A stretch of DNA of 20,467 nt from IMG/VR virus record IMGVR_UViG_3300029448_000434, positions 3,636-24,102 of that record; one strand, 5' to 3'. The position numbers were made by a program, and so were the translations under genes. The notes under the pieces were generated by a model. That model did no database searches. It saw nothing but the letters and a program-made list of their open reading frames with translations, and was not told where the DNA came from. The first letter of the stretch is position 1, and each line of letters begins with the position of its first letter. Of this stretch, positions 2,490 to 16,519 are shown one piece after another. This DNA comes from a virus.

Positions 2490-4157
2490 TTAATAAGTGC
2501 CTGGTTCAGTGCTGTACTCCTGTTCCCTGGGCACATGTATTGGATCCATGAGAATCATGTATCGCAGGGCATCGACAGGATCCTTGGACGCACCCTTGTC
2601 TCCATCTGCATTGGTCCAGGTTCGGAGTGAGTAAATTAAGTTGTTGCAACAACTCGAAACATAAAGTTTCGGTTCGTTCAGAACAGACACCTCCTCGGAG
2701 AGATTATACGAAAATAGATTGTTAACAAGGGCACAAGACTCATCAATGTGGGTCATGGGTGCCGGGTGAAAAATAAGTCCATCTTTGGTGACCTTCCCTC
2801 CTGCACCTCTGTCTGGTTGAGCCAGGAGATCGATCAAACTCTGGTTATGTTCTCTCTGGGAAAGAACTGCTGTTCGTCCTGCCCGGGGATCAATGTATCG
2901 TTCGTGTATCCCTCCATCTGTCCTCTCCAGTTCCCGTATGAGTTGCTTGTATTGATGCAGGTTCCTCCCACAATCAGCAGTCTGGGCCGGGCCTTTTTTC
3001 CCATCCATTTTCGATGATGGAAGTGCCCACTCTCCGTAATCGTCGAAGTTGGGCCACTCCCGGTATATAAAGGCTCGACCAAGTTCGTCCACCTTCAGCC
3101 AAAGCATGAACCAGTTACGGTCCCCTGGAGTTGGGTCAACGACCATGTAGTTAGTTCCCTGGATAGGGATCTGACTTGGTGCCACAATATTTCTGTCAGT
3201 GAACCTTGGAAATTTTCCAACCACCGGGTTTGACACATATCCGTATGCACGGATCTCAACCTCCTCCCTGGTTCTGCCCTTCAAGGTCTTTTGCATGGCA
3301 TCAAAGGGTGAGAATGGATTCCATTCACTGAAGAACCAGAAAAGCTTTCCACTGCCATTCCTGGTCCTTGCCTGGTAGGGCATGTGCCCTTTGGGGACAC
3401 CGGCAATGGTTGAGGGAGTCTTGTCGTCAATCAACCTGGCAGGTCTGGTCTCTTCAATGATCGCACCTTCACAGGCATCTTTTACGGTTGGAGTGTAGCC
3501 ATCTATTGGTGTAAAAGTTACGACCATTTTGCCTCTTCGACTGATTAAACGGTAGCGAAGTGTAGTGATCCAGGACATGGGGACCAACTCATCCATCCAG
3601 ATCAAATCCAATTCTGTCCCCTCCAGGGTGCCTAAGTCCTGGGTATAATTTTTAAACCAACACTGGGATCCGTTCGGCCCAACGAAGGTTCGGTTTGAGA
3701 AACCATTCTTCTGGGAGAAGGCTACATTGACAACTGACCTGACACTCCGCTTCTGTTCCTTCCATTGTAGTGGGAGATAGGTGTGAACGTATGGTTGCTG
3801 GACTTGGATCGAGGAATCATTGCTTGAATGGCAGCACCAGACGCTTTTCCTGGGGGAGTTCACCATTGCCCTTACAACCCTCGATGCCACATACCGGGAC
3901 TTGCCTCCCCTGTTACCACCAAACAGGTAAACAATGTCAATCCCTGGATCGTCCAAGGCCTTGTCTGCATCCTCCCAGTGACTGAACACTCCAGTGGTGT
4001 TGTGCCAGTCCGCACCGTAACTGTAGGGATCCAATTCCTCCAGGCGGATGAGTTCCTCCCGTTTGGCGTAAAAAGCCTCCAGGGTTCCTGAGTCAATCAG
4101 GTCCTGGACCTGGGACTTGGTTGGTGTTGGGATTATAGGGTGCGGAGTCCAGTTCAT
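2490..4157 (-). CDS. terL: Terminase large subunit (packaging ATPase-nuclease)
   Basis: This is the motor and headful or site-cutting nuclease that pumps DNA into proheads through the portal. The ATPase domain shows Walker A GGNRGGKS (residues 80-87), Walker B LDLIWMDE (183-190) with catalytic E190, and the coupling motif VVTFTP (212-217). The RNase H-like nuclease domain shows the expected acidic set: D341 in MVVDPT, D423 in YIDPRAG, and D527/D530 in KDPVDALRYM. At 555 aa it is full length. The ATG follows the upstream gene's TGA by three bases, with a weak GGTGA SD. Its position between a small-subunit candidate and the portal completes a standard packaging module. Confidence 0.96.
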   Translation of the reverse strand: MNWTPHPIIPTPTKSQVQDLIDSGTLEAFYAKREELIRLEELDPYSYGADWHNTTGVFSHWEDADKALDDPGIDIVYLFGGNRGGKSRYVASRVVRAMVNSPRKSVWCCHSSNDSSIQVQQPYVHTYLPLQWKEQKRSVRSVVNVAFSQKNGFSNRTFVGPNGSQCWFKNYTQDLGTLEGTELDLIWMDELVPMSWITTLRYRLISRRGKMVVTFTPIDGYTPTVKDACEGAIIEETRPARLIDDKTPSTIAGVPKGHMPYQARTRNGSGKLFWFFSEWNPFSPFDAMQKTLKGRTREEVEIRAYGYVSNPVVGKFPRFTDRNIVAPSQIPIQGTNYMVVDPTPGDRNWFMLWLKVDELGRAFIYREWPNFDDYGEWALPSSKMDGKKGPAQTADCGRNLHQYKQLIRELERTDGGIHERYIDPRAGRTAVLSQREHNQSLIDLLAQPDRGAGGKVTKDGLIFHPAPMTHIDESCALVNNLFSYNLSEEVSVLNEPKLYVSSCCNNLIYSLRTWTNADGDKGASKDPVDALRYMILMDPIHVPREQEYSTEPGTY

Positions 4158-7192: not shown

Positions 7193-8557
7193 TTAAAAAG
7201 GTGGTGTTTTGGTTTCGATCTCTCCGTCAAACTGGGTGAATTGCCCACAATATTTTGTCCACTGAAGTGAGACCTTTCCCTCAGGCCCATGCCTGTTTGC
7301 CTTGACCATAAGCTGGGTTAGATCAGGCAATGTTTCCGGGTCAGGTTGGTGCAGGAACCCAACCATGTCCGCATCCTGTTCGATGCTTCCTGACTCCCTG
7401 AGATCAGCCAGGCGAGGTTCAGCGTTTGGTCCCCGGGTCTCTATCGACCGGTTGAGTTGTGACAAGACAACGAAGGGTGTGTTCGTTTCCATTGCTGCCA
7501 TCTTGAGTTGCCTGGATAGGACTGACACCTCGTTCGTCCTGGACTCATACCGCTTGCCTGAGTTAACGAGTTGAAGGTAATCGACGATGAACAAGTCAAT
7601 GCCCTTCTCTTTCACGTACCTCCTGGCCTGGGATCTTATTGCAGTGATGGTGAGTCCTACGTTGTCTTCAATTGTGATCGGGAGTTCCATTGCCTTCTTG
7701 GTTGCATTGACCATGGTCTCGATTCCTCCAGGCACGTTGCCTGTCTCCATGTAGTCTGCTACGTCAAGGCCTGAGTCCGCCGATATAAGCTTCTTGGCTA
7801 TCTGTGCGAATGGCATCTCAAAGGACCAGTAGACAACTTTCTTGCCCTGCCTTGCTGCCTGGACGGCAAGCCACAATGCAAATGATGTTTTCCCTCTCTT
7901 GGGCCTGGCTGCAATGATGTTGAGTGATCCACCTTCGAACCCCTTGATGACCTTGTCCAGGGATGGAAGTCCGGTACGTATGCCTGTGACAGGTGACCCG
8001 TTTGGCCAGGCCTTACCCATGCCATCCAGGACCTCTCTCCATCCGTCCTTCTGGGATCTCAAAGTTGAGGCGTTGGTGGTGACATCGAAAAAGTTCTTCT
8101 CCATCTCCCTGAGGAGGTCTGGAGTGTCTATGCCTGGATCCGTTACCCGGGAGATACCGTCATAGTAACGGGACCAGATACGTCTCCTTACTGCGACATC
8201 TTTCAACTTGGGGACCCAGTAATCAACATTACTGGCAGAGGGTGCAGACTCGGTCGCATTGTGGACCCACAGGGCACCCATCTTGACCTCCTGCACCATG
8301 GTCACCTCGTTGATCTCCATTGACGCCTCAGAGAGGGTACCAAGGGCTTTCCAGGCCTTCCTGGGTACTTCATGGTAGAACAGGTCCTCAGATACTCCTG
8401 CCTGAATTGCCCTTTCATACCCTCCCAGGACACAACAACCAATCAAGGCTAACTCTGCCTGTTCATCTGCAGGTATCTGGGCAGGCAATGCAAAGGTCTT
8501 GGTTTCCTCCGCCTTCTTCCTGGAGGCCCATGCCTGGGTATCAGCCGAACTCTGCAC
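7193..8557 (-). CDS. dnaB: Replicative DNA helicase, DnaB type
   Basis: This hexameric 5'-3' helicase unwinds the fork and recruits primase. Numbered from an upstream GTG at 8605, the motifs are: N-terminal domain LALIGCCVLGG (53-62); Walker A ARPKRGKTS (233-241); SFEM with catalytic Glu (261-264); Walker B DLFIVDYLQL (337-346); LSQLNR (381-386); LRESGSIEQDAD (402-413); arginine finger near NRHG (437-440). The start is better placed at GTG 8557 (codon 17 of the long frame). AGGAGGTGG at 8569-8561 lies about five bases before it and is the strongest SD in the region, whereas the 8605/8602 starts have theirs too close. This leaves 454 aa and a 17-base overlap with the initiator gene. A phage-owned helicase next to an initiator suggests a self-sufficient loading system. 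Confidence 0.95.
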   Translation of the reverse strand: MQSSADTQAWASRKKAEETKTFALPAQIPADEQAELALIGCCVLGGYERAIQAGVSEDLFYHEVPRKAWKALGTLSEASMEINEVTMVQEVKMGALWVHNATESAPSASNVDYWVPKLKDVAVRRRIWSRYYDGISRVTDPGIDTPDLLREMEKNFFDVTTNASTLRSQKDGWREVLDGMGKAWPNGSPVTGIRTGLPSLDKVIKGFEGGSLNIIAARPKRGKTSFALWLAVQAARQGKKVVYWSFEMPFAQIAKKLISADSGLDVADYMETGNVPGGIETMVNATKKAMELPITIEDNVGLTITAIRSQARRYVKEKGIDLFIVDYLQLVNSGKRYESRTNEVSVLSRQLKMAAMETNTPFVVLSQLNRSIETRGPNAEPRLADLRESGSIEQDADMVGFLHQPDPETLPDLTQLMVKANRHGPEGKVSLQWTKYCGQFTQFDGEIETKTPPF

Positions 8558-9026
8558 TGTCCACCTCCTCTCTCCACTGACGGTCTTCCTTGGTCGGACC
8601 ATCACCTCTCATCTCAGACCCTGCGTTGTAGACCAGGGCAAAAAGCTTGTCTTTAGTTATTTGATCAGTTCTTTGATTAGTTGCTTGATTAGTTAGTGTA
8701 TCTGTTTTGCGACAGGTAATGTCCCTATTTTGCGACACGTAGTGTATCTCTTTTGATACAGGTAATGTATCTCTTTTGATACACTTCCCTGAGTTCGTTG
8801 CCGTCAATGTTCTACTCCTTCCTCTCCATCCCTGGGTGATCCAACCGTTTTCGATCAGTCCTTCCAGGTGACGGTAAAATGTGTTTTTTGACATGCCCAG
8901 GGTCTTTGAAATCTTCGCTTTGTTTTCAAAGCACTGTCCTCTCATGCATATGTAGCAGTAAATGGATACCTGGGTATGGGTCCAACCCTGTTCAAATATC
9001 CATTGTGGAATGTAAGGTTTTTTCAT
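8541..9026 (-). CDS. Winged-helix replication initiator (lambda O-like role)
   Basis: The 161-aa protein probably binds the origin and loads the downstream helicase. Residues about 15-70 form a winged helix: THTQVSIYCYI, then ISKTLGMSKNTFYRHLEGL and ENGWI. The start is ATG 9026, which overlaps the preceding TGA (ATGA); upstream in-frame ATGs would overlap the previous gene by more than 90 bases. Residues about 79-122 are encoded by tandem DNA repeats (four 23-bp iterons, then three 12-mers). Because 23 is not a multiple of three, the peptide there is a non-repeating linker. This matches the plan of lambda gene O: binding domain, origin inside the gene, then a helicase-contact tail. The role is inferred from fold, origin and synteny. 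Confidence 0.8.
   Translation of the reverse strand: MKKPYIPQWIFEQGWTHTQVSIYCYICMRGQCFENKAKISKTLGMSKNTFYRHLEGLIENGWITQGWRGRSRTLTATNSGKCIKRDTLPVSKEIHYVSQNRDITCRKTDTLTNQATNQRTDQITKDKLFALVYNAGSEMRGDGPTKEDRQWREEVDSAEFG
8661..8696 (+). repeat. Three AT-rich 12-mers beside the iterons
   Basis: There are three head-to-tail 12-bp units: TTGATCAGTTCT (8661-8672), TTGATTAGTTGC (8673-8684) and TTGATTAGTTAG (8685-8696). They directly abut the 23-bp iterons and encode TNQA, TNQR and TDQI on the - strand. Such AT-rich short direct repeats are typical DNA-unwinding elements. Confidence 0.85.
8697..8788 (+). repeat. Four 23-bp iterons inside the initiator gene
   Basis: Units start at 8697, 8720, 8743 and 8766 with an exact 23-bp period. 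All share TGT..CT.TTTTG..ACA, and units 1 and 3 end in GGTAA. Units 3 and 4 contain the dyad TGTATC-N6-GATACA; units 1 and 2 carry GCGACA as the right half. About two helical turns per unit would place sites on one DNA face. The pattern is that of initiator-binding iterons. Confidence 0.88.
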
Positions 9027-9355
9027 CTCCGCAACACTTTCTCCTTTATAAATTTTATTAACTCCAGGCCTTCTGGACCACATACTCTGAGTCCCTGCAT
9101 GGTGCTTTTTAATTGACCTGGGTCTTTGCACCCGGCCGCTAGTTTCTCCCTGACATACGACACATAGTCTTTCTCATTATCGGTGCGTTCATCTGGGTGG
9201 TAGTGGATCCCCCTGGGAGAACCAGGGGGCAATTCATAGGGTGTCTCTGGGTAGTATATTTTCTGGATTGAAAACTCCCTGACTGCTCGTTGAAGCAGGT
9301 CAGGAAGTTTGTTCCAGGCATCCCTAGCCAGGACCTTGTTTTTAAGCTGAGTCAT
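9023..9355 (-). CDS. Hypothetical protein, 110 aa, in the replication operon
   Basis: Not recognised. It lies between the exonuclease and the initiator, overlapping the exonuclease by 14 bases at its start and the initiator ATG by four at its end. The N-terminus is helical and basic (MTQLKNKVLARDAWNKLPDL). The middle is Pro/Gly-rich (YYPETPYELPPGSPRGIHY). The C-terminus reads LELIKFIKEKVLRR. It has no signal peptide and no metal-binding cluster. Tight coupling suggests a helper in replication or recombination, without direct support. Confidence 0.7.
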   Translation of the reverse strand: MTQLKNKVLARDAWNKLPDLLQRAVREFSIQKIYYPETPYELPPGSPRGIHYHPDERTDNEKDYVSYVREKLAAGCKDPGQLKSTMQGLRVCGPEGLELIKFIKEKVLRR

Positions 9356-11981: not shown

Positions 11982-12194
11982 ATGTCGGTTATGGCTAACA
12001 TGAGACATCCTGACAAACGGTGTCTCGGTGCTTGGGTGGACAAGGATCTTTACCTGGATTGGCAGGCAGAGGTTGAGTCCCTGGGGCAGACTTTGACTGA
12101 GAGGGTGACAACCCTTCTGCACCGAGACTTGAAAATACTAACTCAGAAACGACTTCAGAAGAAGTCAGGTCCAGGTGATTCGCCAGGTGTTTAA
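11982..12194 (+). CDS. Ribbon-helix-helix (CopG-like) regulator, + strand
   Basis: The 70-aa product reads MSVMANMRHPDKRCLGAWVD and continues KDLYLDWQAEVESLGQTLTERVTTLL: a beta strand, helix, TLT turn and helix, as in MetJ/Arc/CopG-type DNA-binding dimers. A basic tail follows (KRLQKKSG). Several Met codons (11982, 11991, 12000) are possible starts and none has a good SD. The strand-helix-turn-helix is also seen in the 57-aa protein at 14330-14503. Its 3' half is antisense to another RHH-like gene. Likely a repressor of the lysogeny or early region. Confidence 0.5.
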   Translation: MSVMANMRHPDKRCLGAWVDKDLYLDWQAEVESLGQTLTERVTTLLHRDLKILTQKRLQKKSGPGDSPGV

Positions 12195-12261
12195 TCGCTT
12201 CCATGGTGTCTTGTGAAATCATCAATCGCACATTTTCATTTTCCGTCAAATTATTTTCCAT
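11995..12261 (-). CDS. Ribbon-helix-helix-like regulator, - strand, antisense to its neighbour
   Basis: The first 47 residues have a clear RHH pattern: ENVRLMIS (strand), QDTMEAIKHLANHLD (helix), LT turn, SSEVVSELVFSSL (helix). An AAGGGA SD lies a few bases before ATG 12261. The remaining about 40 residues (SPSQSKSAPGTQPLPANPGK) are Pro/Ser-rich and antisense to the + strand RHH core, so the tail may be unimportant. It would head the leftward transcript. Either both genes are real and mutually antisense, or one is a shadow; the SD favours this one, while the other has the better full-length sequence. Confidence 0.5.
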   Translation of the reverse strand: MENNLTENENVRLMISQDTMEAIKHLANHLDLTSSEVVSELVFSSLGAEGLSPSQSKSAPGTQPLPANPGKDPCPPKHRDTVCQDVSC

Positions 12262-12396
12262 GATTCCCTTTTCCCATCAATAACGAATTTTGATTACCGG
12301 AGGGGCCAGATTATTTTTAAAAAGAATAACTGAACCCCTAGGACAATGACAGTCCAACCGTTTTTTTTTAAATTATAATATTAACTCAGTTTTGTA
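12262..12396. promoter_or_regulatory. AT-rich divergent control region upstream of attP
   Basis: A gap between the leftward RHH gene and the integrase frame. It contains TTATTTTTAAAAAGAATAA (12311-12329) and a T-rich/AT stretch around 12360-12385 (AAATTATAATATTAA), suitable for promoters on either strand or for IHF-like bending next to an attachment site. No single promoter can be fixed by eye. Confidence 0.4.
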
Positions 12397-13332
12397 ATGA
12401 CCGCACAATGGCATTGTGGGGGTCTGGGGTTCGACTCCCCACGGCTCCACCATACAAAACCGGCAGTCAATCTGTCAGATCAAGACCTAGATGTCATCAG
12501 TGACATGTGGTCCAAAGGCATCTCATTGGCTCAAGTCTGGTCAGATTGGCGGAGGTTGTATCTTGCTAGTGACCAACAAGTCAAGACTTGTATTGAATTA
12601 TTTTTAAGTCACCTCAAAGCGTCAGGCAGATCTCCGCAATACATTAAGGAATTCGGTTGGGTTTTAAACAAGCTCGACTCCTATGTAGACACCTCCATTC
12701 CGCTTTGCCAGGTCACCACAAAAAGTTGGTGGCGTGCCCTCGATTCTATGAGGGCAGGAAATACGGCAAGACGTAAAGTTTCAGTGTTTTTAAATTGGTG
12801 TTTGAAGCAAGGTTTCATAAAGGAGTCTATTAACATTCCCAGCAAACCTTCCTACCCATCTGGTGAGATCGAAGTGCTTTCAAATGACGAGGTCTGCTCG
12901 TTAATCAAAACCTGTCCTTTAGATTTACAAGGACATCTATGGTTGTGTTTATGCATGGGGTTAAGGGTGGCAGAAGCGTCCAGGGTCCAGCACTTGGCGA
13001 TAACAGACACTCACCTGGTCGTTGGTGCCCAGGCTTCAAAAACAAAGTCCAGGCGAGTCCTGGACGTTCCTGAGGGACATCAAAAGTATACCAGGCTAAT
13101 TAGACCCCAGGTCAATCTCAGGAAGCGAATGGAATGCCTGAGGGTGGAAGCAGGTTTGTCCAGGTGGCCCAGGAACTGTATGCGGCATACTGCAGCCTCC
13201 CATTGGCTCAATAGACTTCAGTCAGCAGAGTCTACCTCACTCCACCTGGGCAATTCTCCGGTCATGTTACACCGGCACTACAAGGCCTTGGTGACACGGG
13301 ATGAGTCAGAGGAATTCTTCAGTCTCTGGTAG
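12397..13332 (+). CDS. int: Tyrosine recombinase integrase
   Basis: Catalyses site-specific integration and, with a directionality factor, excision. The core-binding domain covers about residues 45-140. The catalytic domain shows GLRVAEAS (R190), SKTKSRR (K215/K217), NCMRHTAAS (R263, with Asn260 where His is usual), LGNS (N286 for the usual His or Trp) and HRHY with nucleophile Y295. LGNSP.M..RHY is a known variant form in phage integrases. From ATG 12397 the first 20 residues are simply the translated tRNA core. ATG 12505 (MWSKGIS) would give 275 aa with the folded domains intact and is a strong alternative. No SD supports either. Integration would place this gene directly behind an intact host tRNA-Ala. 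Confidence 0.92.
   Translation: MTAQWHCGGLGFDSPRLHHTKPAVNLSDQDLDVISDMWSKGISLAQVWSDWRRLYLASDQQVKTCIELFLSHLKASGRSPQYIKEFGWVLNKLDSYVDTSIPLCQVTTKSWWRALDSMRAGNTARRKVSVFLNWCLKQGFIKESINIPSKPSYPSGEIEVLSNDEVCSLIKTCPLDLQGHLWLCLCMGLRVAEASRVQHLAITDTHLVVGAQASKTKSRRVLDVPEGHQKYTRLIRPQVNLRKRMECLRVEAGLSRWPRNCMRHTAASHWLNRLQSAESTSLHLGNSPVMLHRHYKALVTRDESEEFFSLW
12403..12452 (+). other. attP: attP core: 3' half of tRNA-Ala(GGC)
   Basis: The sequence folds as a tRNA 3' half. Anticodon stem: GCACA (12403-12407) against TGTGG (12415-12419), with one mismatch at the base. Loop: ATGGCAT with anticodon GGC at 12410-12412. Variable loop: GGGTC. T-arm: TGGGG-TTCGACT-CCCCA (12425-12441). Acceptor strand: CGGCTCC, then A and encoded CCA at 12450-12452. 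T at position 70 fits the alanine G3:U70 identity pair. No D-arm or 5' acceptor strand exists upstream, so this is not a functional tRNA gene but a phage-borne crossover core. The host target would be the 3' end of tRNA-Ala(GGC). Confidence 0.85.
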
Positions 13333-14613: not shown

Positions 14614-15534
14614 ATGAAAGACGGTTTGTATTGCAGTTCAGGCATGGACATGTTCTCAGTTGGTAGTGAAGGTAACGTCCATCGGTGCAATTTTATGGTC
14701 CGCAAAACGGAGACCATGATGGGCAACCTCCTGGACGACACCGTCAAAGTTAACGATGCCTACACGTATTGTCCTGTCCAAAAATGCGAGCAGATCTGCG
14801 ACCGTCACTGGTCCAGTAAAAAAGTATATGAATCAGGAGAAGAAACTGACCACCAGGGAGTCCAGGACGAAAGCGTCTATGAAGGCCTGACTAAGCCTGC
14901 CAGCATCATCTGGGCACCCTCCTGGGTGTGCAATTATAATTGTCACTATTGCGGTCTTCCAAGGGATACCAGGAAGGTTTTAGCCGATGAGTGGGTGCAA
15001 GGATTTTCCAGGTTCATAGAGGTCAACAAATTTGACGGAGGTCTGCTGCATACCAATGGAGGTGAACCTCTGTTCTATGAAGGGATCGGAAAGATTTTCA
15101 CTTACATGGCCTCCAAGAATTTTCAAATAGGATTGACCACCAACCTGTCATCGGACGTTTGGGGTAAAGTGGTCCATGCTGCCCCTCCAGAGGCCTGGAA
15201 GAGTATTAACTGCAGCATTCACCCAACGGAACCGAAGTTCTCCTGGGAGGTTTACAGTGGACGTATTCTGGCACTCCAGGCACTCGGTTACCCGGTAGGG
15301 ATGAACCTGGTTGGGCACCCCTCTCAGATAATGCTGGCACCCAGGTACGCAAAGTTCTGCAAGGACAACGGAATAAATTTTGCCCTGATCCCAATGGTAG
15401 GAAGCTTCGATGGATTCAACTTCAAGACCATTGACGACTACCCAGAGAAAATGAGGAAGATCATCAAGGACCTCTGTCCTGAGACGCTGGACGACAGAAA
15501 CAAATTCCTAAAAGGTGCCCGGGTTACAAACTGA
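14614..15534 (+). CDS. Radical SAM protein with an N-terminal SPASM-like cysteine region
   Basis: Radical SAM enzymes use a [4Fe-4S] cluster to cleave S-adenosylmethionine and start radical chemistry on a peptide or small substrate. The cluster motif is CX3CX2C at C106, C110 and C113 (VCNYNCHYCG), with the SAM-binding TNGGEPLF at 147-154. Unusually, the first 66 residues read like an auxiliary-cluster (SPASM/twitch) domain: C7SSGMDMFSVGSEGNVHRC25, MGNL, then C53, C58 and C62 (YCPVQKCEQICDRHW). Such domains normally follow the radical SAM core. A stop codon precedes the ATG in frame, so no upstream core is attached. There is no SD. It converges on the glycosyltransferase with an 11-base overlap. 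Substrate unknown; glycan, peptide or cofactor modification are all possible. Confidence 0.88.
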   Translation: MKDGLYCSSGMDMFSVGSEGNVHRCNFMVRKTETMMGNLLDDTVKVNDAYTYCPVQKCEQICDRHWSSKKVYESGEETDHQGVQDESVYEGLTKPASIIWAPSWVCNYNCHYCGLPRDTRKVLADEWVQGFSRFIEVNKFDGGLLHTNGGEPLFYEGIGKIFTYMASKNFQIGLTTNLSSDVWGKVVHAAPPEAWKSINCSIHPTEPKFSWEVYSGRILALQALGYPVGMNLVGHPSQIMLAPRYAKFCKDNGINFALIPMVGSFDGFNFKTIDDYPEKMRKIIKDLCPETLDDRNKFLKGARVTN

Positions 15535-16519
15535 ACAGGAATTTCTTCCAAAGTTTCTTGACCCTGGTTGCACTGAATTGTTCTCTGGCAACCTTGACTT
15601 GCTTCTCAGATAGGGACTGCAGCCATTCGGATGGATCCATGGTGAGGGCATCCTTCATCTTCATCTTGAGTGTCCAGGTATCCGGTGCCAATTGACTGCT
15701 GTCCAGGAGACCAGGCAGTGCTGTTTCCCACCCAGGCGATGACACCCCGAAAAGCGGAAGGCCAGTGAATAAAGCCTCCAGGAAGGCGAGTGTGTAGGGG
15801 GCAGGTTTAGTGCCTCCATACCACATGACTCGGTGCCTGGACAAATGCTTAAGGAAAGTATGGTAGTCAGGAGATCCCTGGTGGTGCTTCTCACCGTGGT
15901 TGAGAATGCCATACAGTGCTGCAGGCAGGTCGCTGGTTACATGGTCCCAGCAATGAGTTCTGCAGACCTTGGCCCGGTTGGCAATGTTGTTGCAACAACC
16001 TGCAATGACTTTTTCTTCACCTGTCCAGGTGTGGAAGTCTTCTGGGTATTTGCCGAAAGGAATAATTGCATCATGCCCCTGGTAATCCTTCCTGTCCTGG
16101 TAACCGTCCCAGTAACGGACTATTTTGACTCCACTGTCCTGGACTCGCTTAATGTGCCTCACCTCATCCTTGGGGACCGTCTGCCCTATGTCTCGCCAAA
16201 TGACTTTCTTTCCCTGGAATGCTTCCAGGTTGTTGTAAATAAAGGACCACTTGTGCATGACGATGATGGCATCATATGGTTCCAATGCCTGGGGAGTTAT
16301 GTACAGCTTGTGATCTTGCCCTGGGGATGCCGGGATAGAGTTCCATGCGTCGATCCATTCCTGGTTCCTGGGGATGTTTAAAGGGAGTCTGAGCCTGGCC
16401 CCTTTTGATGGTTTCCAGTAGGCACCTGGAGACATCACGTTGACGCCAGGTATCTCAGTGAGCATCCGTAATTCGTCATACTCCAGGACCTCATGACAGG
16501 GAAGGTACAAAATGTTCAT
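15524..16519 (-). CDS. GT-B-like glycosyltransferase
   Basis: The 331-aa protein begins MNILYLPCHEVLEYDELRML, a beta strand-turn-helix start like GT-B N-domains. A second Rossmann-like half contains VMWYGGTKPAPYTLAFLEAL and FTGLPLFG (232-258), the nucleotide-sugar-binding E-x-G-P region of GT4-like enzymes with E248 as the likely phosphate/ribose contact. There is no membrane segment, so it is cytoplasmic or peripheral. It probably transfers a sugar to a cell-surface glycan, a phage component or DNA; the acceptor is unknown. It faces the radical SAM gene, and both lie between repeat copies 6 and 7, which marks the pair as cargo. The promoter probably lies in the A/T-rich tract 16540-16570. 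Confidence 0.75.
   Translation of the reverse strand: MNILYLPCHEVLEYDELRMLTEIPGVNVMSPGAYWKPSKGARLRLPLNIPRNQEWIDAWNSIPASPGQDHKLYITPQALEPYDAIIVMHKWSFIYNNLEAFQGKKVIWRDIGQTVPKDEVRHIKRVQDSGVKIVRYWDGYQDRKDYQGHDAIIPFGKYPEDFHTWTGEEKVIAGCCNNIANRAKVCRTHCWDHVTSDLPAALYGILNHGEKHHQGSPDYHTFLKHLSRHRVMWYGGTKPAPYTLAFLEALFTGLPLFGVSSPGWETALPGLLDSSQLAPDTWTLKMKMKDALTMDPSEWLQSLSEKQVKVAREQFSATRVKKLWKKFLFSL

Follow-up and report, generated by a model that had tools for sequence, protein, structure and literature searches.

An attachment site within a tRNA-Ala half lies between the predicted start codon and the body of a phage integrase gene

Introduction

What becomes of an integrase gene when the site at which its product is expected to recombine lies within its own reading frame? 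The question is posed by a 20,467-nt stretch of viral DNA (hereafter the window; positions 3,636 to 24,102 of IMG/VR record IMGVR_UViG_3300029448_000434), in which the integrase frame runs through the 3' half of a tRNA-Ala gene; the virus record, of 24,102 bp, carries terminase, DnaB helicase and exonuclease genes. An earlier note on this sequence had proposed that the integration state could switch expression of the integrase (int), or the start codon it uses, by placing it behind a host tRNA gene.

Parts of this arrangement have precedents. State-dependent switching of the int promoter is described, in excerpts from a report on tRNA-borne int genes, for ICEKp1, ICEclc and ICEEc1 (PMC13023037); in Myxococcus phage Mx8, as outlined in extracts from two papers, attP lies within int and integration alters the C-terminus of the protein (PMC6070905, PMC4701971). 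A review, in its portion on integrases that disrupt their own gene, regards these as exclusively archaeal and mentions for archaeal pTN3 that a tRNA promoter could drive transcription of the int(C) part (PMC8371274). Excerpts from a paper on Oenococcus prophages contain no description of such an attP/int overlap (PMC8074189), and our searches of the open-access literature turned up no account of integration at attP severing a start codon. Here we describe the anatomy of the locus, its viral relatives and an integrated chromosomal relative, and weigh the regulatory consequences that may follow.

A tRNA-Ala(GGC) half inside an integrase frame

The integrase frame (12397..13332, + strand) opens at an ATG (12397..12399), encodes 311 residues beginning MTAQWHCGGLGFDSPRLHH, and is of the tyrosine-recombinase type. 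Such enzymes share the catalytic set R-K-(H/N)xxR-(H/W)-Y, and R190, K215, R263, H283 and Y295 are invariant across eight aligned integrases, residue roles having been assigned by eye. The phrog_1 integrase family is matched by the window integrase with an E-value of 9.3e-10 and by seven of nine members of the group (best E-value 1.9e-10); Pfam PF00589 is matched by only two of nine, at best with an E-value of 0.013, below the PF00589 cut-off, and PF16795 (Phage_integr_3) was not among the Pfam matches. A PDB search with the integrase gave no match at an E-value of 0.01, nor did tblastn against the phage collection give any, and an AlphaFold model (mean pLDDT 50) was too poor for use.

As the earlier note had recognised, the initial residues of this frame are encoded by the 3' half of tRNA-Ala(GGC), which comprises the anticodon stem-loop, T-arm, acceptor strand and CCA and measures 49 nt (12404..12452, + strand) where 50 nt had been given. 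The exact 47-nt pattern 12406-12452 occurs at six places in the genome collection, all in Verrucomicrobia; five are tRNA-Ala with anticodon GGC according to ARAGORN, whereas L004, the sixth, lacks the 5' part and amounts to a tRNA half. What the window shares with the host locus does not stop at the tRNA but runs past CCA into the flanking host sequence; it defines an attP core of 58 bp (12404..12461, + strand) by comparison with two Verrucomicrobia genomes (L006 and L007), or of 57 bp with L005. The exact Verrucomicrobia matches, the 58-bp identity and shuffles rule out a chance overlap of the tRNA half with the integrase frame. The anticodon stem-loop (12404..12418, + strand) is an inverted repeat, CACAAT-GGC-ATTGTG, and is the likely core-type site of the integrase. 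The phage family appears to infect Verrucomicrobia, an assignment of the kind made for marine Verrucomicrobia phage group G11, whose host was deduced, in the relevant part of that report, by matching attP to a tRNA in a Verrucomicrobia single-cell genome (PMC3861242); the likeness concerns host inference alone and implies no kinship to the window.

None of the three frames of the tRNA-Ala half contains a stop codon, and an open frame across it therefore carries no weight on its own. ATG 12397, for its part, begins 7 bp to the left of the 58-bp block and, because it lies outside the region of identity, parts from the integrase body wherever within the block the strands are exchanged.

Features left of the crossover and a proposed mechanism

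A TATAAT (12374..12379, + strand) located 17 nt before the ATG, and kept in the viral relative L008, is the probable -10 element of a free-phage int promoter; a consensus promoter scan did not list it, and such scans were uninformative. An imperfect inverted repeat, GGACA-n5-AGTCC (12341..12355, + strand), falls in a column block kept in all seven aligned relatives, reads GGACA-n5-TGTCC in L009, and is probably an operator or arm site. That this promoter-like, operator-like and start region would lie across the crossover from the integrase body, as had been expected, holds true, the whole of it staying on the other side. Further left, a small divergent ORF (11995..12261, - strand) and another antiparallel to it (11991..12194, + strand) are conserved, each with counterparts in L008, L009, L012 and L014. 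The former is a possible regulator or directionality factor, and the pair are candidates for a putative int regulator and directionality factor; a Pfam scan of those small ORFs next to int that were scanned gave no match.

On this anatomy, which is firm, we propose that integration severs the promoter and translation start from int, thereby silencing it or leaving it with weak alternative starts, a reading to which we assign a probability of roughly 0.6. The attP crossover would separate the promoter, ribosome-binding site and start codon from the rest of the int gene. In the free genome an intact int, translated straight through the tRNA-Ala half, would allow the enzyme to be produced. When strands are exchanged within that half, probably at the anticodon stem-loop, attR would keep the promoter, the ribosome-binding site and the start, and at attL the int body would come to lie behind a complete tRNA-Ala of the host, with no start of its own that bears a ribosome-binding site; any int transcript in the lysogen would originate at the tRNA promoter and be expected to be cleaved at the tRNA. 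Integration would in this way shut down or lower the level of its own enzyme, and excision would restore int. Translation from the upstream starts, silencing in the lysogen and a trigger for excision are what we infer from this arrangement; the predicted severing of the start codon, and in relatives of the ribosome-binding site too, makes the proposal sharper than that of the earlier note.

An integrated relative and the starts left at attL

A search of bacterial genomes for prophages at the 3' end of tRNA-Ala(GGC), which had been suggested on the same grounds, found an integrated relative at exactly that site in SCGC AAA164-E04 (KB912012; G001:C175), and the identity of the site as attP is supported. 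An intact int, with 77% identity to the window integrase over its body, lies directly behind a complete tRNA-Ala, just as the earlier note foresaw for the integrated state. The element shows the direct repeats and whole tRNA of a tRNA-targeting integrative element: its 58-bp repeats are 15,422 bp apart, the int body stands at attL, and the second 58-bp copy is preceded by ATGGGTATTCCG. When its ends were joined in silico, the ATG in that sequence opened a single frame that crossed the block and continued into the int at the opposite end; start and body of this gene lie at opposite ends of one chromosomal element. The element is a relative and not the phage of the window; near attR it matches AAA_25 and, weakly, Toprim_2, and it may be a satellite or other element instead of a close relative of that phage. 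A decayed int behind the second 58-bp copy indicates that elements have accumulated at this tRNA-Ala. The 15.4-kb tRNA-Ala element with this int (L045, 3383-18889) has primase/ATPase-like genes at its far end and may be a phage satellite with the integrase module in common.

The exact core pattern occurs in 10 of 320 genomes of the order (12 matches in total), and int-family sequence follows the tRNA in four of these ten. In two of the four (G003 and G004) there are only decayed copies; G001 has the intact int and its decayed second copy, and the int of G396 is open from the core and interrupted near its 3' end. A 39-codon match in G002, mostly tRNA-encoded, was left out of this count. Two contigs of G396 end in the core, which fits an assembly break caused by the repeat and is no proof of excision. 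At an E-value of 1e-25, int was found in 1 of 387 genomes of the phylum sample and in 7 of 320 of the order.

We modelled a lysogen of the window by setting the tRNA-Ala 5' half of L005, as a stand-in for the window's host, before the window block. The int frame is there open from 43 nt left of the block, with no ATG, GTG or TTG until 12505. In the model, severing removes every standard start for the window int, and others keep only starts without a proper ribosome-binding site. The other two frames of the same host tRNA-Ala contain TTG/TTG/GTG and ATG/TTG at attL, so that int in members reading those frames need not be fully silent. Such codons bear on a reading in which promoter and start are switched without silencing, the tRNA promoter driving int and a TTG, GTG or ATG in or before the tRNA providing Int with a new N-terminus for excision. 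The location of int directly behind a complete tRNA-Ala speaks for it, as does L006, whose int frame stays open further upstream and has TTG codons at -33 and -12 and a GTG at +12; yet the window's frame holds no such codon, those of L006 lie in or beside the tRNA without a clear Shine-Dalgarno (SD) sequence, and tRNA processing, by established knowledge, is expected to cut the message ahead of the int body. We consider this reading unlikely, even with tRNA-driven int transcription published for ICEKp1 in the excerpted account (PMC13023037). We count in favour of the severed start a comparison with five unrelated integrases behind tRNAs in the same hosts: in four, the earliest in-frame start comes 79-721 nt past the tRNA, and in the fifth, L040, an ATG falls within the tRNA itself and the following one 99 nt beyond it.

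A frame rule across viral relatives

A protein scan retrieved nine distinct viral loci, and a scan with the tRNA half the same nine contigs, giving with the window ten members (L015 and L016 being cut by the contig end). In each of the ten, a 44-nt core (TGGCATT...CCACCA) has an in-frame ATG or TTG 8-18 nt to its left, and in eight AGGAGG stands immediately ahead of this start codon. In shuffles of six of these eight, a start with an SD match of at least 5 nt arose at 0.0005-0.003 each, values that are not independent since the members are related; an in-frame start by itself is expected within 20 nt by chance at 0.11-0.25 per sequence. The core is read as QWHCGG (window, L008), as MALWGSG (L009, L010, L015) or as HNGIVGV (L011-L014, L016), and the lengths in nt from start to core and from core to an LSxQD segment are (12,19), (18,19), (10,30), (8,29) and (11,29), the frame always being kept. 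What counts, in our judgement, is this compensation of lengths on either side of the core, and not the open frame itself.

The LSxQD segment is common to these Ala members and to a tRNA-Leu group described below, and its four fixed codons show 13, 13 and 150 differences at positions 1, 2 and 3 (all pairs among 14 sequences, the pairs not being independent). This coding-type variation indicates that LSxQD is translated and that the start lies upstream of it; no ATG, GTG or TTG occurs between core and LSxQD in any of the ten members. For the Ala group we take the upstream ATG or TTG to be the natural start, from which translation would proceed. No SD was detected before the start in the window, in L008 or in the attP of the chromosomal relative L045; an SD-like match of any kind is present at just 5 of the 23 gene starts listed in the window, so that its lack before the window int says little. 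The leader GTTTTGTA of the window and L008 can pair with TACAAAA behind the CCA (z -2.2 and -1.7). A start hidden in a tRNA-like RNA fold was rejected, since four SD-bearing members, when folded, gave nothing clear beyond shuffles (z -0.7 to 0.8).

The next in-frame ATG (Met37; 12505..12507, + strand), which the earlier note had offered as an alternative int start, is a real ATG yet is not conserved, its position being GTC in L009 and L010 (and in L015, which matches L009) and ATT in L016. It was rejected as a regular start, as it would also drop the conserved LSxQD with its coding-type variation.

A start downstream in both states, non-standard or weak, with the tRNA segment untranslated and the upstream ATG or TTG a product of chance, is rendered improbable by the SD and start in eight of ten members, by the compensating lengths, and by the lack of a standard start from core to LSxQD in all ten. 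In its favour is the sister group at tRNA-Leu(GAG), which must start downstream, perhaps at a conserved ATA at CCA|TA. Two further viral scans with alignments yielded one new relative, L060, and the tRNA-Leu pattern L061 (the G396 int, L062, was left out of alignment A4); with the chromosomal L027 and L028 these make up the sister group, in which int lies directly behind the tRNA half. A stop codon inside the half, and the absence of ATG, GTG and TTG between half and LSxQD, mean that this group cannot use the severed-start device, and a severed-start rule for all relatives was rejected. ATA at CCA|TA is the only table-11 alternative start kept in all four members; an AUA start is possible, and from its sequences the group must start by another route, retained after integration. 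ATA is also in frame in L006, where that route may apply too. Very improbable is an ordinary tRNA-targeting integrase with attP near int, an overlap of no regulatory effect and excision via other copies or factors: attP at tRNA 3' halves is a common kind (PMC3861242; see also PMC4383910), but the severing of promoter and start is geometric, the start lying outside the identity block.

Relation to known systems

The geometry fits promoter switching of the kind seen in ICEKp1, ICEclc and ICEEc1, where, in the excerpts cited, int likewise lies at the tRNA-adjoining end and the free-form promoter, at the other end, joins it on excision (PMC13023037). In the ICEKp1 type so described int keeps its own 5'-UTR behind the tRNA and the promoter alone changes, whereas here the predicted start codon and ribosome-binding site are also on the far side and the tRNA half is coding. 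Mx8, too, is a bacterial phage with attP inside int whose integration changes Int, as far as the extracts report (PMC6070905, PMC4701971); its C-terminus is exchanged, a replacement not found here, where the overlap is N-terminal and the start and first residues would be removed. Archaeal suicidal integrases of the SSV type share a recombination site within int and disruption of the gene on integration, according to that part of the review (PMC8371274), but are split into Int(N) and Int(C); no such split was found here, where the loss would be confined to the start, a few codons and the leader that the tRNA encodes ahead of the crossover.

Promoter switching at tRNA genes and attP within int are known; severing of the start by way of a coding tRNA half is a variation on them that we did not find in the open-access literature. 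With firm anatomy and a predicted functional step, control of int by integration state would extend from promoter to translation start, the crossover falling between start and body of int in a bacterial phage family in which host tRNA serves as coding sequence in three frames; integration would be coupled to enzyme shut-off simply, without a protein. We suggest only tentatively, and with some doubt, that this is a bacterial counterpart of suicidal integrases, in which a lysogen without Int of its own would have just two ways out, leftover initiation within the tRNA or Int provided in trans when a relative infects; insertion of this one-way kind would account for the tandem and decayed copies at tRNA-Ala.

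Other features of the window

A 13-nt repeat, GGTGTTNGTCACC, occurs at 115, 5143, 6533, 10910, 11927, 14585 and 16578, always on the + strand; these seven sites with at most one mismatch compare with 0.17 expected, the sequence is also repeated in the relative L014, and it may be a phage-wide operator-like repeat. Iteron-like 23-nt repeats (8694-8784) lie inside an ORF (8541-9131, - strand) that is a putative initiator gene just upstream of DnaB, an arrangement we take to resemble a lambda-O-type origin. Near int, a radical-SAM-like gene (14614-15534, + strand; PF04055, E-value 3e-5, below cut-off) is overlapped tail to tail by an unnamed gene of 331 aa (15524-16519, - strand).
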